Origin: a virus
Direction: 5' to 3' (one strand)
DNA length: 26,964 nt
Virus record (IMG/VR): IMGVR_UViG_3300031602_000032
Location: 1 to 26,964 of that record
The position numbers were made by a program, and so were the translations under genes. Positions within the stretch are counted from its first letter, which is position 1. Every line of letters begins with the position of its first letter. The notes beneath the pieces were generated by a model. The model was not told where the DNA came from. It worked only from the letters and a program-made list of their open reading frames with translations, and did not search any database. Shown piece by piece: positions 7,858 to 14,831 of this stretch.

Positions 7858-9471
7858 ATGAGTCTATACAGAGGAAGTGGTGGTGTAGGAAGTTCTAACA
7901 CTGATGCCACCATCACAGCAGTAACACAAAAAGCTTTAGAGGCAGCTAACTCTGCTACAGCTTCCTCTGTATCAGCCGCTAATTCTGCGTCTAGTGCTGC
8001 AGAGATTACAGGATTAATAACAACTACAACAACACTTCCTGCAGGCGCATCATCTACGTCCGTGTACAATTCAGTTACAGGTGTACTAGCCTTTGGCATA
8101 GCCGCAGGAGGAACTGGTGCTACTGGACCAACTGGTGCTGATTCAACTGTTGCAGGACCAACTGGACAAACTGGATTAACTGGATCTCGTGGTCCTATAG
8201 GTGCTGAAGGTGCTGATTCAACTGTTGCAGGACCAACTGGAGCTACTGGGCCAACTGGATCGGTAGGCTCAGATGGACCTACTGGAGCTACTGGTGCTAC
8301 TGGTGCTGATTCAACTGTTGTAGGACCAATTGGAGCTACTGGACCTATAGGATCCACTGGTGCTACTGGTGCTACTGGTGCTACTGGTGCTACTGGTGCT
8401 GATTCAACTGTCGTAGGACCAACTGGATCTACTGGACCTATAGGAACTACTGGTGCTACAGGACCCACTGGACCAACTGGTGCTGATTCAACTGTTGCTG
8501 GCCCTACTGGCCCTATAGGAACTACTGGTGCTGCAGGAGCTACTGGTGCTACTGGTGCTGATTCAACTATTGCTGGTCCTACTGGAGCTGCTGGAGCTGA
8601 CGGGGCATCAGCCCTTAATGGTGTAGAGGATAGTGAAGAATATACAGCTACGTCAGGACAAACCACTTTCTCTGTTACTTATGATGTAGGTTATGTAGAG
8701 GTATATCTAAATGGTAGTCGTCTAGATAACTCAGACTACACTGCAACTAATGGTACTTCTATTGTCTTAGACAGTGGTGCTGCTACAGGTGACACAGTAT
8801 TCATCCATTCGTTTGGTACATTTGTACTTTCTGACCATTATAGTAAGACGGCTGCTGATGCTCTACTGCTAGGAAAGGTGGATGATTCACAAGTACTGAC
8901 TAACGTACCAACAGGTGCTTTATTTACTGATACTAATACAACTTACTCTGTGGGCGATGGGGGTCTGACTCAAGTCAACTTCACAACAGCCGATAATACT
9001 AAGTTAGATGGTATAGCTGACTCTGCTAACAATTACACACTTCCTTCAACACTTCCCTCGTCTATGCTTACAGGAGCACTACCAGTAATTAGTGGTGCCT
9101 CCTTAACAGGAGTGGATGCTAGTCTTCTAGGGAGTGAGGCAGGTTCTTACTATGATGATAGAACCATAAATGCCTTAGGTAGTATCTCAGGTGCTACTAC
9201 AATTGCGTTAGGAAGTGGTACAAATGTTACTGCAACAATAACTGCTGCAACTACATTATCAATAACCCAAACTACATCCAGCTCAGTAAACACTGTCACC
9301 TTATACCTTGTAAACGCAGGTGCTTATGCAATCACTTGGCCTACAGGTACTGTTTTTAACCGTAACTCTTCACCTATTCTATCTAGTACTGGCGACACGA
9401 TAATCGTTTTAGAAAGCTATGACAATGGTACTAGTTGGTCAGGTGTGCAGGTGTGGAGAGACACAGCATGA
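7858..9471 (+). CDS. Collagen-like tail or surface fibre protein
   Basis: A 537-residue structural protein. Residues 1-83 are an Ala/Ser/Thr-rich helical anchor. Residues 84-249 are collagen-type Gly-X-Y triplets (GATGPTG and similar), interrupted six times by a GADST(V/I)(A/V)GP module whose four extra residues break the triplet register. The C-terminal part (about 250-537) is a beta-rich fibre with [35 protein letters not shown] and a closing [13 protein letters not shown]...YDNGTSW domain, as in many aquatic phage fibres. It should form a homotrimer and bind the host surface or decorate the particle. It is the first of two collagen-like genes here and overlaps the next gene by 4 nt (ATGA). 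Confidence 0.8.
8107..8607 (+). repeat. Collagen Gly-X-Y coding repeat with GADSTV modules
   Basis: Short DNA repeats of the type GGTGCTACT and GGTGCTGATTCAACTGTT recur through this stretch. They encode Gly-X-Y triplets and six GADST(V/I)(A/V)GP modules. The near-identity of the modules at DNA level makes this a likely site of slippage or recombination, and it also explains the long Pro/Val/Ala-rich open frame on the other strand. Confidence 0.8.
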
Positions 9472-10838
9472 GTCGTAATGTACTTGCTAGTGGTAGTTTT
9501 CTAACTACCTTCGATACGTCTTGGGCGACTTCTTTTGCGACGAACTTTTCCACGAATACATCGTACACTACTAATCGTATTACGTCCTTTCTAACAGCAT
9601 TCAATACGATTACAAGTTATTCAACCTCTTTCAACACCACATTTAGTACCTTAGTTCCTACCAACACTAGTAGAGCAACCAACAGGACTACAACTTATGT
9701 AACAGCCTATCCTGCAGTCTATGGAAACACTAGTAGAAGTACCAATAGAACCACAACTTATGCAACGCTCTATCCTGCAATCTACGCAAATACTAGTACA
9801 GGCACCGCCAGAACCACAACTTATTCAACGGCCTACCCTGCAACCTATAGGAACACTAGTGTCTCAACAAGCTGGACTACCAGTTGGAATACATTAGTAC
9901 CTGCTGTTAATAGGTCAACTTCCCAAAGCACTAGTAAGACCACTAGTCGAGCCACTGCTAGGACAACTTCAGTGAGTACCTCAAGGGCGACCACGGTCAG
10001 TACGTTAGTTACTGCAGCAAGTTCGCACTCTACAAGTAGAAGTACGAGTAGAAGTACTAGCTTTAACACTACCCAAACAGGTATGGCAGGGTTTAAATAT
10101 TATTACAATGCAAGCTGTTCTGGGTTCAAGAATCAAATACTCAACGGGTGTGTTGGTGGAACAAAAACCTTTGGTGGCTGTTATTGCATCAATACACCGA
10201 CTGGCAATGGTTACTTATCAATACAGTATTGCCCCTCATCATCATGTACTAAAAGTACCTCCCGTACGACATCTTTTACAACGACATGGACAACTTCTGT
10301 CGCTGCTTCTTATAGAAATACTAGTAGGACAACCGCTTTTCCTACTTCTTTCTCAACCAGCTTCACAACTTCTTTTTCAACGTCATATGCAACGTCATGG
10401 AGTACCTTAGTTACAGCAGCATTCTATCGAGGTACATCAAGATCTACGAGTCGCACTACGAGTTGGAGTACTCAAACTGCTGCAGGATATAACCAGAACA
10501 CGTCACGTACTACAGGTTGGACTACAACGTTTAGTACCCAAACTGTTGCAGCACGTTACCTTAATACCTCTCGTAGCACCGCTTTTAATACGGTTTGGAG
10601 TACTCAAACTGCTGCAGGATATAACCAGAACACCTCACGCAGTACAGCTTTGACCACTACGTTTAGCACAGGGGTTCCTGCCAACACTAGTAACGTGACT
10701 TCAAACGTCACTACATTAGCAACCCAAACTAGTAGGGCATCTTCACGTCAAACGACTTTTGCAACATCACATACTACTAACACTGGGAACTCAACGAGTC
10801 GCACGACTACGTTCTCAACCTCAAACTACACAGGATAA
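9468..10838 (+). CDS. Thr/Ser/Arg tandem-repeat protein with Cys-rich insert, probable virion fibre
   Basis: A 456-residue protein of extreme composition: Thr and Ser at about every second residue, with regular Arg and aromatic residues. The N-terminus repeats roughly every four residues ([12 protein letters not shown]). Then come about 21-residue units beginning NTSR and running through TNRTTTY to YPAVY. After a TSRST-rich stretch, a different domain with six cysteines interrupts at about 205-260 ([29 protein letters not shown]). A second array follows, with 22-residue units ([15 protein letters not shown]). There is no membrane helix or signal peptide. The pattern suggests an elongated beta-structure or fibre and is mucin-like. 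I know no function for it. It overlaps the collagen fibre gene by 4 nt and precedes a chaperone-like and a glycosyltransferase-like gene. Start ATG 9468 follows GGAGAG. Confidence 0.75.
10463..10633 (+). repeat. 39-bp exact direct repeat within the Thr/Ser repeat gene
   Basis: An identical 39-bp stretch occurs at 10463-10501 and 10595-10633, 132 bp apart, which is 44 codons or two 22-residue units. A diverged copy lies between them. Exact identity at DNA level over a protein repeat points to recent duplication or gene conversion. Confidence 0.8.
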
Positions 10839-10842
10839 CATC

Positions 10843-11340
10843 ATGCTCTACTTACGATTTGGCCCAGATAACCAGCCCATAGAGTTCCCAATTGAGGAAC
10901 GGGTACTAAGGGCTACCGTCACAGCAACACTGCCAGCGATGCTAACTGATGAAGCCCTTCTACCTTTTGGGTATGCACTTCTTTATCCAACAACTAAGAA
11001 CATCCCACAGGCCACTAAGACGCATAGGCTTGCTATAACAGATTGCGTTCGCGATGACACTATTGGTGTATGGGTACGGGTGTATGGCTTAGAAGAAATT
11101 GATAACGAGCATCTCAAAAGTGTACGGCTTGATAATAAATGGGAAGAGGTCAGATTCAACCGAGACAACATGATGAGAATACTTGAGTGGCGTATTTCAA
11201 GATGCTTACGTGAGACTAGGTTAGGCATAGAAACAACGGACGAGATAGGCGAGCTTGATGCCATGATGCAACAGCTAGCAGATCTCACAGAGGTGGAAGA
11301 CCCCTTCTTAATTAACCTAAGCACAATTGTAATGCTATGA
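10843..11340 (+). CDS. Tail-fibre assembly chaperone-like protein
   Basis: A 165-residue protein. The N-terminal part (RFGPDNQPIEFPI, then TLPAMLTDEALLPFGYALLYPT) and the later WEEVRFNRDNMMRILEW segment (near 100-116), followed by an acidic helical tail, resemble phage tail-fibre assembly chaperones, in which a W-x-x-x-R-x-x-R-D pattern precedes a helical end. Such proteins help fibres trimerise and usually lie immediately 3' of the fibre they serve, as here after the Thr/Ser repeat protein. The RISRCLRETRLGIETTDEIG part is unusual for the family. ATG 10843 follows AGGATA; upstream in-frame codons overlap the previous gene. The match is from memory of the family pattern, so confidence is moderate. 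Confidence 0.5.
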   Translation: MLYLRFGPDNQPIEFPIEERVLRATVTATLPAMLTDEALLPFGYALLYPTTKNIPQATKTHRLAITDCVRDDTIGVWVRVYGLEEIDNEHLKSVRLDNKWEEVRFNRDNMMRILEWRISRCLRETRLGIETTDEIGELDAMMQQLADLTEVEDPFLINLSTIVML

Positions 11341-12245
11341 AGTTCGCACAAGAGCTAATGACTAGTAAAACCGTCCAGCATGGCAAGATTGGAGATGCTG
11401 TTAGGTCTGGGAGAAACCAATGGGCTGAAAGCATGGAGCACTTGATAAGGTCAAAATCACCATACCCTTGCTCTTATGATGTATCCCAGACGCAAGACAC
11501 TAGGTTCAGTGAATATACTTATACTGAATTACTAGGAGGGGTGTGGGTAGCTACTCAGAGTGTTGAGATAAATGCCCGTATTATGAGTTTGGAATCCTCT
11601 AGAAAGAGTCAAGTCAAGCTGAGTCAAATACAAGATAGCATTACTGACAAATATGAGTCTGATGGAGGAGAGCATAAGCACAGTGGTGCGAAGAAGGTTG
11701 TCTTTATGCCTGGTCACAACATGATGGATTGCGCCTCTGTTGAGATGATACACAGGCTGGTTCACGAAGACCCTGAAGTGGTTATTAAACCGCACCCTAT
11801 TACTAATGACGAGTCTCTTAAATTTCTAGGTACTCGATTTGGGTGGGACAAGATTGCCAGTAGAGAAGTGAGTGGTAACAAGATGATGGCTGAGGCAGAT
11901 GTTGTATACACAACAAGTGCTTCAGAGTTCTCCTTGTCTGCAACAGCTTTAGGAAAAGAAGTAGTGAACATTTCCAACTTTTTCAATGAAGCTGTAGGTG
12001 CTTATTATCCTATATCTAGAGTTCTATTCATGGCTCATAAAGAGTCTGTAGCTAAGGCACAAGAAGTACTGTGTAATTTATTATCAGGGCAGGCTGGAAT
12101 CATAATGCCTTTTGTAGAAGATGTTGAATCGACGCTAACTAACTACTATCAGTACTCTTTGGACATTAAAGGGATGTACCAAGATTTTAGGGACAAGAGC
12201 CAGAAGAATCCAGCCAAACCAACAAAGGTCGAGAATCATGGGTAA
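11337..12245 (+). CDS. GT-B glycosyltransferase-like protein (capsule/CDP-glycerol transferase type)
   Basis: A 302-residue protein. The C-terminal half has hallmarks of the GT-B nucleotide-binding domain found in capsule-polysaccharide and CDP-glycerol-type transferases: VVIKPHP at 149-154, then an acidic helix, MAEADVVYTTSASEFSLSATALGKEVV at about 184-210 (the serine-rich loop, Glu197 and the A-x-G-K turn). The N-terminal half (1-110) is less recognisable, with a VVFMPGHN strand near 120. It would transfer a sugar or sugar-phosphate group to an unknown acceptor in the cytoplasm. The gene is embedded among fibre genes (ATGA overlap with the chaperone-like gene), so the acceptor could be a fibre or a host surface polymer. 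It is not a typical T4-type DNA glucosyltransferase by motif. Confidence 0.55.
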   Translation: MKFAQELMTSKTVQHGKIGDAVRSGRNQWAESMEHLIRSKSPYPCSYDVSQTQDTRFSEYTYTELLGGVWVATQSVEINARIMSLESSRKSQVKLSQIQDSITDKYESDGGEHKHSGAKKVVFMPGHNMMDCASVEMIHRLVHEDPEVVIKPHPITNDESLKFLGTRFGWDKIASREVSGNKMMAEADVVYTTSASEFSLSATALGKEVVNISNFFNEAVGAYYPISRVLFMAHKESVAKAQEVLCNLLSGQAGIIMPFVEDVESTLTNYYQYSLDIKGMYQDFRDKSQKNPAKPTKVENHG

Positions 12246-12446: not shown

Positions 12447-14831
12447 ATGAGCAAAGCAAGAGATATAGCAGATGGTGCAGGTTCTGTAGGAGCTACTGGA
12501 GCTACGGGTGCAGCAGGCGCTGATGGAGCTGATGGAGCTGACGGAGCAGTTGGCCCTGCTGGTTCAACTGGTTCCGCTGGCGCTACTGGCTCTGCTGGAG
12601 CTGATGGTTCAACAGGCTCTGCTGGTGCAACTGGACCTGCTGGTTCAACTGGATCTACTGGTTCCACTGGTGCTACTGGCTCTGCTGGAGCTGACTCAAC
12701 TGTCGTAGGGCCTACTGGCTCTACTGGTCCTGCTGGCTCTACGGGTGCAACAGGCTCTACTGGTGCTGATTCAACTGTAGCTGGTCCCTCTGGCTCTACG
12801 GGTGCTACTGGCCCTTCTGGATCTACTGGTTCCACAGGAGCTGCTGGTTCCACTGGTGCTACTGGCTCTGCTGGAGCTGATGGTGCTACTGGCTCTGCTG
12901 GAGCTATAGGTCCCGCTGGTTCTTCTGCAAACCTTACAGCCGTATCAGTAAGGAACACAAGTAAAGCTAAGACTGCTGTGGAAGGAATGACGTGGCTTAC
13001 TAATGCAGATAAGACTTTGTATAATACAGCAACGCAAACATACACTCAGGATAATAATGGCTACTGGCAGAACATACGCCCTTACTCCTCCTCTACAACC
13101 TACCCCGCTGGAGATCCTTCTTATAAGCGGAATGCTGTGCCCATGTATATGCTTAGTGGAGATGCAGAATATCTAGGTGATCCTACTAAGGTGCAGCCAC
13201 ATAATTATAATCACTATTCTAATGCTGCACATAAAGGTGCAAACTACATATATGGTGGTCCAGTAAGTGGAGCAGGTACAGTTACACCTACCCGACTAGT
13301 AGACCCTAATCCCGAACCTTCATGGAGAACCTCTGGATTATCCTATCAGTATCTATCAGGTAGTACTGAGGATGAAACAGGTAAATGGGGTAAGAACGTA
13401 GTAGGTGCAGGAGCAATAATCTCCTATTGCATAGTCCCTAATGGTACTACCTTAACTTCCGACCATGATGGAAATGCTGGTGTATCTGACTTTACGTTAC
13501 TAGGCTTTAACCCTAGAGCTGATCTTTTGGCAGTATTCCAAGAGATGTCTAGTGAGTGTAATGTTAAGTTTGTGGAGAGGGATTTTGATCCAGATAACCC
13601 ACTATCTCCTGATATGATAATAGGGTGTCTCCCAGCATTATCAGGTGCTATGGCCCATGCATACACTCCTAGAGTACCTACCCCGATAGTAGATAGTTCT
13701 AATGTAAATGACGAGTATACAACAACTTGGTCAGGCAACATAATGTTCAATAGTTTTGAGACTCAACACCTTGCACTACCAACCACACCCTATTCTATGT
13801 GGTATTCAGATTCTGTTGGAGGAACTCAATCTGCTAGTAAATATAATTTCAGATTAGCATTTAGACACGAGTTAACCCATGCTATGGGCTTTATGCATAT
13901 CCCAGATACAGATAGTGTTGTATACCCATTTATTGATCAAGGACAGTCAGACTACTACTTCTCTCATGGGGACATAGCAGGACTTCAGTACTTGTATGGT
14001 GTACCTCTAGTAGGGTCTGTAGGCACTGAGATAAAGACTAGTATAAACTCAGTTGAGAAAACAATTGCAACATTCACAGAGAACGAGGTGTTTCTAGGGG
14101 AAGGTGTTTATGTTAATCAAAATTCTCTAGCAGGTGATAAAGGTCTAGGAGGTTCAGGAACTGGCGCTACTGGTGCTACTGGCCCTGCTGGTCCTACTGG
14201 TCCTACTGGTCCTACTGGTGCTACTGGTCCTGCTGGATCCTCTTCACACAAGTCAGGTAGAGCCTATGTAGTGGCTTCTAATAGCGCCACTATTGCAGTG
14301 AACACAGCATCAATGCCTGCGGGTCTAAAGACAATGTCCTTAATAGGAAGTGTTGCAGGAGCTGCTGGTGTTATTGACTATAGCAGTGTAAATAATTACA
14401 CCTTTAGTGGTTATGGAGCATACTCGGAAGCGGCACCTTCAGTTAACATGAACTGGCTTACTAGTGGTGATAATATCACTAACGCTACAGGTCAGTATGA
14501 GACAACAACAGATAAAGGAGTCTACCTAGTAACTGGTGAAGTGACTATATCTGCTAGTACGGACATAGGTAATGTAAGAGTCTATGTGATTAATGCAGAT
14601 TGGGGTTTGCAAGATAAGAAGTATAGCTATGGTGGAGAAGGTAATCTTATATTTAATGCGACTACCTCTGACTACCGCAGGACATTTGCTACTACAATGC
14701 ACTCTAACAGGATTGGGTTACCAATTCAGTTCCGCTTAGTCGTTGAGACACTTCCTAGCGTAGTAGTAACTTATAACATACACACAGGCGCTGCCTTATT
14801 TGGTGTGACTAAGATAATGGATCTACCTTAA
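12447..14831 (+). CDS. Collagen-like fibre with embedded metzincin protease domain
   Basis: A 794-residue mosaic. Residues 10-157 are Gly-X-Y collagen triplets with two GADSTV(A/V)GP modules. Residues about 160-545 form a zinc-protease-like domain: an [12 protein letters not shown] strand, [32 protein letters not shown], then [11 protein letters not shown] at 474-484, a full HExxHxxGxxH zinc site, and [12 protein letters not shown], as in serralysin/matrixin (M10-like) metzincins. The usual Met-turn methionine appears to be Val (SVVYP, 490-494). Residues 570-598 are a second collagen segment, and about 600-794 a beta-rich head like C1q or fibre-tip domains. It should trimerise and present protease units on the virion. 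The ribosome site is AAGGTAGGA. There is no signal peptide. Confidence 0.8.
12474..12922 (+). repeat. Collagen Gly-X-Y coding repeat of the protease fibre
   Basis: Tandem nine-base units such as GGTGCTACT, GGTTCAACT and GGAGCTGAT encode collagen triplets. Two GADSTV modules are shared with the 8107-8607 array. A shorter array of the same kind lies at 14155-14240. The repeats give a long open frame on the opposite strand that is not a gene. Confidence 0.8.

Follow-up and report, generated by a model that had tools for sequence, protein, structure and literature searches.

The open reading frame at positions 9468 to 10838 of IMG/VR virus record IMGVR_UViG_3300031602_000032 encodes a threonine-rich repeat protein split by a cysteine-rich domain, and it raises the question of what such a chain builds and what it does for the phage that carries it. 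The whole record of 26,964 bases was analysed and is referred to here as the window. It contains tailed-phage genes for the large terminase, portal, capsid, an SU10-type adaptor and a collagen-like fibre. The ORF is a real gene, and its ATG at 9468 overlaps the stop codon of the upstream tail-fibre gene (ATGA). The features of this region are:

7858..9471, + strand: collagen-like tail-fibre gene (Pfam Collagen, 2.8e-14; PHROG tail fibre families)
9468..10838, + strand: array protein, 456 aa, threonine-tetrad array, proposed hairpin fibre
9504..10070, + strand: N-terminal arm, approximately residues 13–201; 188 residues from first to last chain Thr
10071..10256, + strand: central insert with six-Cys domain, residues 202–263, proposed tip or knob; Cys conserved in homologues L002 and L004
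10257..10835, + strand: C-terminal arm; 191 residues from first to last chain Thr
10843..11340, + strand: tail assembly chaperone-like gene, 165 aa; 45% identical to its L002 homologue; PHROG tail fibre, E 0.01
11337..12245, + strand: glycosyltransferase-like enzyme with predicted GT-B fold, 302 aa; PHROG 26179 (unknown function); KxHP and SE motifs invariant; may modify the array

Sequence organization of the array protein

Threonine makes up 28.1% and serine 17.8% of the array protein, with 5.9% arginine and 12% aromatics, and the chain contains a single Asp and no Glu. There are 69 Thr-Thr pairs at a lag of four residues where 35.3 would be expected (z 7.7; reached in 0 of 2000 shuffles), and lags of 8, 18 and 22 are likewise far above chance. 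The main unit is composed of four residues, [S/T/N]-T-[S/T]-[R/F/Y/W], in agreement with the near-four-residue Thr/Ser steps described in a sequence-only reading of this DNA. The 21–22-residue units of that reading are found in both arrays as a higher-order unit over the tetrad, the NTS units beginning at residues 66, 87, 108 and 129 (step 21) and at 344, 366 and 388 (step 22). The Cys-rich domain that it placed between the two arrays is also present, spanning approximately 44 residues at mid-array with Cys at positions 217, 228, 238, 240, 255 and 260. All four Thr codons are freely used in the gene (45/28/24/31), which indicates that the regularity is held at the protein level through selection on the protein pattern; the same codon use rules out a DNA minisatellite as the origin of the array. 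The array protein does not exhibit a significant match with Pfam, PHROGs or the PDB (no PHROG entry at 0.1, and only sub-threshold chance matches in Pfam). AlphaFold2 prediction of the monomer gave a mean pLDDT of 31 and hence did not establish a fold.

Homologues of the array protein

Searches with the full-length array protein using tblastn and phmmer returned no homologues, probably because low-complexity filters mask this sequence. The first homologue, L002, was reached through a fragment query; its array protein of 492 aa is 59% identical along its length and retains both the repeats and all six Cys, so that relatives with conserved repeats, a check named in the sequence-only reading, do exist. 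A third array protein of the same type is encoded by L004. The gene neighbours are conserved among the window, L002 and L004, with a shared fibre C-terminal domain encoded before the array and genes for proteins of 163–165 and 301–302 aa after it. The array protein of L008 and its relatives occupies the equivalent position; it is strongly diverged and has a Cys-rich centre of its own. Cultured phages with array homologues, recognized by position and composition, are Lullwater, BL199, Cr30 and the KVP40 group; the array proteins of distant phages were grouped through position, composition and architecture, and alignment was not the basis. Nearly all of these homologues, in uncultured viruses and cultured phages alike, are annotated as hypothetical proteins, and QZI87587.1 (MYOV011v1_p0320), the array protein of Vibrio phage 6E35.1a, is labelled a putative cell wall mannoprotein. 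The open-access literature yielded no paper on these Thr repeats, and the work found there on virion glycosylation concerns mostly animal viruses. In Caulobacter phage Quill_5.2 (L011 5837–6480) a frameshift apparently divides the array gene when it is compared with Lullwater gp41, the array gene at NC_047860 37073–37720.

Equal arms and a variable insert

The arms on the two sides of the insert are matched in length throughout most of the family. The insert was defined as the longest interruption in each array protein and was considered clear in the 31 proteins where its length was 1.4-fold or more that of the next gap. The lengths of the N- and C-terminal arms of these proteins correlate with r 0.948, and the insert lies within 0.45–0.55 of the array in 26 of 31. 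With one hand-picked protein per clade (20 proteins) the correlation is r 0.978, 17 fall within 0.45–0.55, and none of 10000 random placements matched this result. The arms measure 188/191 residues (N/C) in the window, 205/209 in L002, 147/143 in L004, 254/254 in L061, 256/256 in L071 and 294/293 in L036, and the lengths range across the family from about 45 to 290 residues. The insert is also central (0.49) in L245, a record from which the enzyme discussed below is absent. Unequal arms or an ill-defined insert are found in L021, L034, L046, L197 and Lullwater.

The arms are also related by the order of their threonines. Of 25 proteins, 21 show significant mirror symmetry of their Thr positions around the insert, versus 9 of 25 in the direct orientation; the same mirror tests on aromatic (8/25) and basic (5/23) residues performed no better than the direct orientation. 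An inverted DNA duplication was considered as the origin of the mirror and rejected, as it would yield reverse-complement codons and not a reversed peptide. The simplest reason for matched arm lengths is antiparallel pairing with the insert at the turn, and the sequence data point to an antiparallel hairpin in which the two arms would pair as strands and the insert would form the tip.

The insert itself may be a loop of 5 residues or exceed 120 residues in length and is often Cys-rich, and its mid-array position hardly varies. By sequence comparison, inserts change faster than arms between relatives. The arms of L061 and L068 are 68–70% identical and their short inserts are barely alike, and where L061 carries a 13-residue loop, L071 carries an insert of 90 residues. 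The centre is thus more changeable than the arms, which bears on the earlier question of whether the Cys insert swaps independently of the arrays, and this variability is as expected of the tip or knob that the same reading had suggested for the Cys domain.

Linkage of the array to a glycosyltransferase-like gene

A BLAST search (tblastn) placed homologues of the 302-aa enzyme in the Caulobacter phages Lullwater (gp42), Quill, BL199 and Cr30, in Stenotrophomonas phage DLP6 and in KVP40-like phages of Vibrio. One or two genes before the enzyme, the Caulobacter phages and those members of the KVP40 group that were examined encode a Thr/Ser/aromatic repeat protein. A profile scan of viral contigs identified 53 enzyme loci, and 42 distinct loci were left by taking those with enough flanking sequence and removing near-duplicates. 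An array ORF lies just upstream of the enzyme on the same strand in 36 of these 42 and downstream in 2; the loci share ancestry, and the counts are therefore not independent trials. Inspection showed arrays in L021, in L040 and in the record of L194 that the automatic threshold had not recognized, and L069, which it accepted, is doubtful.

The linkage was also observed from the side of the array. A DNA pattern for the array class, blind to the enzyme, retrieved 14 true viral arrays, and the records of 10 of them contain the enzyme (with one duplicate pair). A generic probe for Thr every 12 bases, used as a negative control, retrieved other repeats (TPTP, VTGN and similar) with the enzyme in 0 of 78 loci. 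In bacterial genomes the array-class probe matched for the most part short stretches of near-perfect repeats, and the enzyme was not found. The array records without the enzyme are L245, L281, L290 and L310, which are 21–39 kb in length and are possibly fragments; the enzyme occurs without a typical array in DLP6 and L067. In the DLP6-like phages (L013, L019, L069) the place of the Thr array next to the enzyme is taken by a coiled-coil ORF and a very large, repetitive protein of surface type. In the KVP40-like phages (L434, equal to KVP40 129338–135775, and L014, L015 and L016) the genes for the array (KVP40.0254) and the enzyme (KVP40.0256) lie close before queC, and nicotinamide phosphoribosyltransferase-like and radical SAM genes also follow the pair.

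Predicted fold and donor of the enzyme

The enzyme is confidently predicted to have a GT-B-type fold by an AlphaFold2 model built with 33 relatives (pLDDT 90.6, pTM 0.88), in which the 302 residues form essentially one GT-B unit. Structural comparison of the model with VIA-align gave moderate and tied scores: an NDP-sugar enzyme aligned over 148 residues with Z 10.2, the CMP-Kdo transferases KpsC, WbbB and KrkA over 199–220 residues with Z 9.1–9.7, and polysialyltransferase 5wcn over 132 residues with Z 9.0. Pfam matches among 33 family members are weak but agree with this: GT52 at 6e-4 (one member), Capsule_synth at 6e-3 and polyST at 0.05 (two members, weakly). A further weak sequence match is to KpsC at 0.03. 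No TPR domain is found among the Pfam matches of these members at E 0.1. The residues K105, Y106, G126, N128, K151, H153, P154, E197 and G254 are invariant in the 33 sequences and include a (K/R)XHP motif, K151-x-H153-P154. KxHP is the cytidine-binding motif of sialyl- and Kdo-transferases, which are CMP-sugar enzymes (PMC12887879, PMC2169525).

The retaining beta-Kdo transferases KpsC (GT107), WbbB (GT99) and KrkA (GT140) thus resemble the phage enzyme in a near full-length GT-B-like fold and in KxHP, at 9–12% identity. The QXXXD motif, which carries the catalytic Asp that serves as nucleophile in Kdo transferases, is however not conserved in the 33 sequences and is replaced at the corresponding strand end by PGxN, in which G126 and N128 are invariant. 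The bacterial sialyl- and polysialyltransferases (GT38, GT52, GT80) have the HP motif in common with the enzyme but act on glycans and not on protein, and none of the invariant or nearly invariant columns in the alignment of 33 sequences corresponds to their D/E-D/E-G motif. Since neither QXXXD nor D/E-D/E-G is conserved, the enzyme is not filed in the Kdo-transferase or sialyltransferase families. By analogy with them it most likely works in a similar manner, and transfer of a CMP-activated sugar is predicted.

A donor made by the phage was rejected as a general rule, as NeuB is encoded in 0 of 44 phage records and a CMP-sugar synthetase in 1 of 44. These figures indicate that the donor would be the host's, with CMP-Kdo as the candidate that Gram-negative hosts would most widely offer. 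Only 4 of 34 records contain genes of the epimerase family. In L008 (6109–9749) the module is directly followed by genes for a sugar 4,6-dehydratase and a sugar C-methyltransferase, together with two related possible glycosyltransferase genes, one of which has a weak Galactosyl_T match.

Comparison with known glycosylation systems

FlmG and Maf transfer CMP-activated ulosonic sugars in the cytoplasm to Thr/Ser of flagellin (PMC7591256). FlmG contains a domain of GT-B type and is an enzyme of Caulobacter, the host of Lullwater and Cr30 (PMC7591256). It differs from the phage enzyme in possessing an N-terminal TPR domain that binds the acceptor, and the likeness proposed between the two would be one of function. 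From gene linkage, we infer that the phage enzyme moves a sugar onto Thr/Ser of a protein acceptor. The proposal that the array is a natural O-glycan acceptor, made earlier from its mucin-like composition, is accordingly strengthened as an idea by the linked glycosyltransferase-like gene, with glycosylation itself still to be read as putative.

A comparable arrangement is found in the serine-rich repeat adhesins of Gram-positive bacteria, in which a repetitive Thr/Ser acceptor is encoded beside its own glycosyltransferase. These adhesins differ from the phage pair in their repeat, in their enzyme and in their location in the cell wall instead of a tail operon, and we know of no equal-arm symmetry in them. 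Mycobacteriophages encode glycosyltransferases that act on virion proteins. Phage tail fibres share with the array gene its position in the tail operon, and the open-access literature yielded no description of a fibre in which equal, mirrored Thr arms flank a swappable tip.

Tail-operon setting

The C-terminal region of approximately 110 aa of the collagen-like fibre (ending in QVWR) is common to the genes that precede the array in L002 and L004, and the product of this fibre gene is proposed as the attachment partner of the array protein. The chaperone-like protein of the window has no Pfam match itself; its positional homologue in L008 matches PF16778 (Phage_tail_APC) at 4.6e-6, with 26.8 bits against a cut-off of 26.6. 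Arrays are fused to, or located beside, baseplate genes in L290, L245 and L281. Together, the operon, the chaperone gene and these baseplate-linked arrays suggest that the array protein is located in the tail. In L290 (1915–7434), from a T4-like phage, a protein of baseplate type continues at its C-terminus into a Thr array of approximately 1060 residues, in a 39-kb record without the enzyme.

Proposed model and alternatives

The explanation favoured here, at slightly better than an even chance, is that the array protein is a tail-associated hairpin fibre with a variable tip and with Thr/Ser residues O-glycosylated by the partner enzyme. The array protein would be made along with the fibre and chaperone gene products, and prior to assembly the enzyme would O-glycosylate the arms on Thr/Ser in the cytoplasm of the host, most likely with a CMP-activated sugar of the host such as CMP-Kdo or a nonulosonic acid. 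The sugar coat would give a soluble, stiff and protected fibre. The equal N- and C-terminal arms would pair antiparallel over their whole length. Both termini would dock on the tail as the base of the fibre, adjacent to the product of the upstream fibre gene, and the exposed tip that contacts the host receptor would be formed by the central insert, which in the window is the six-Cys domain. Counted against this explanation are the low pLDDT of the array monomer, the enzyme and array exceptions, the members with unequal arms or an ill-defined insert, the need for a donor from the host, and the partial-length likeness of the enzyme to NDP-sugar GT-B enzymes.

The sugar is the part of the model that the symmetry evidence does not require, and the arms could instead pair as a bare Thr/Ser beta structure, with the enzyme modifying, for example, host surface sugars or another tail protein. 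The array records without the enzyme, the presence of the enzyme without a typical array in DLP6 and L067, and the location of the KVP40-like pair beside a queC/NAMPT gene cluster are consistent with this reading, which we nevertheless regard as rather unlikely. The enzyme follows the array in several unrelated phage groups despite differing carriers (standalone, with a YYRGG domain, or with a collagen-like neighbour), and tracking of this kind fits an enzyme and its acceptor better than an enzyme of the host surface. If the arms were glycosylated and yet disordered, the protein would be a mucin-like shield or sticky brush, in which the repeats serve as acceptor sites and the insert as a spacer. 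The low-confidence monomer prediction, the high Thr/Ser content and the near absence of acidic residues would suit a brush, but it offers no reason for near-equal arms over about 45 to 290 residues or for mirrored Thr positions, and the strict four-residue spacing with an aromatic or Arg at one position implies a fold; we consider it improbable. The sequence-only reading had suggested a beta-solenoid or an elongated trimeric fibre, in which the Cys domain would be an inserted receptor-binding or cross-linking knob. Regular repeats and the tail context agree with this, and phage fibres usually trimerise. A solenoid, however, gives no reason for an insert at the midpoint whatever the array length, and the equal, mirrored arms point to an antiparallel hairpin instead, so that a solenoid is not supported and this explanation appears the most doubtful of those considered. 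A trimer of hairpins is possible.

In its widest form, the glycosylated hairpin would represent a new kind of viral fibre across unrelated tailed phages, composed of equal, mirror-matched arms of Thr/Ser tetrads zipped antiparallel, coated by an enzyme of a new GT-B family and ending in an exchangeable tip; this is advanced tentatively, at a little under an even chance. It would give a function to an essentially unannotated gene pair in KVP40, Caulobacter phages and many uncultured viruses, and would reveal a fibre architecture with arm lengths matched within one chain. It would also add a system of protein O-glycosylation that is carried by phages and acts on a simple repeat of four residues. 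Host recognition could then be sought at a new site, the exchangeable tip, and the model is directly testable in cultured phages.

A second fibre gene in the window

The window also encodes a collagen-like tail fibre at 12447–14831 with an internal Peptidase_M10 (matrixin) domain (3e-8). Its 11-residue zinc motif is that of a metzincin-type protease, located here inside a phage fibre.
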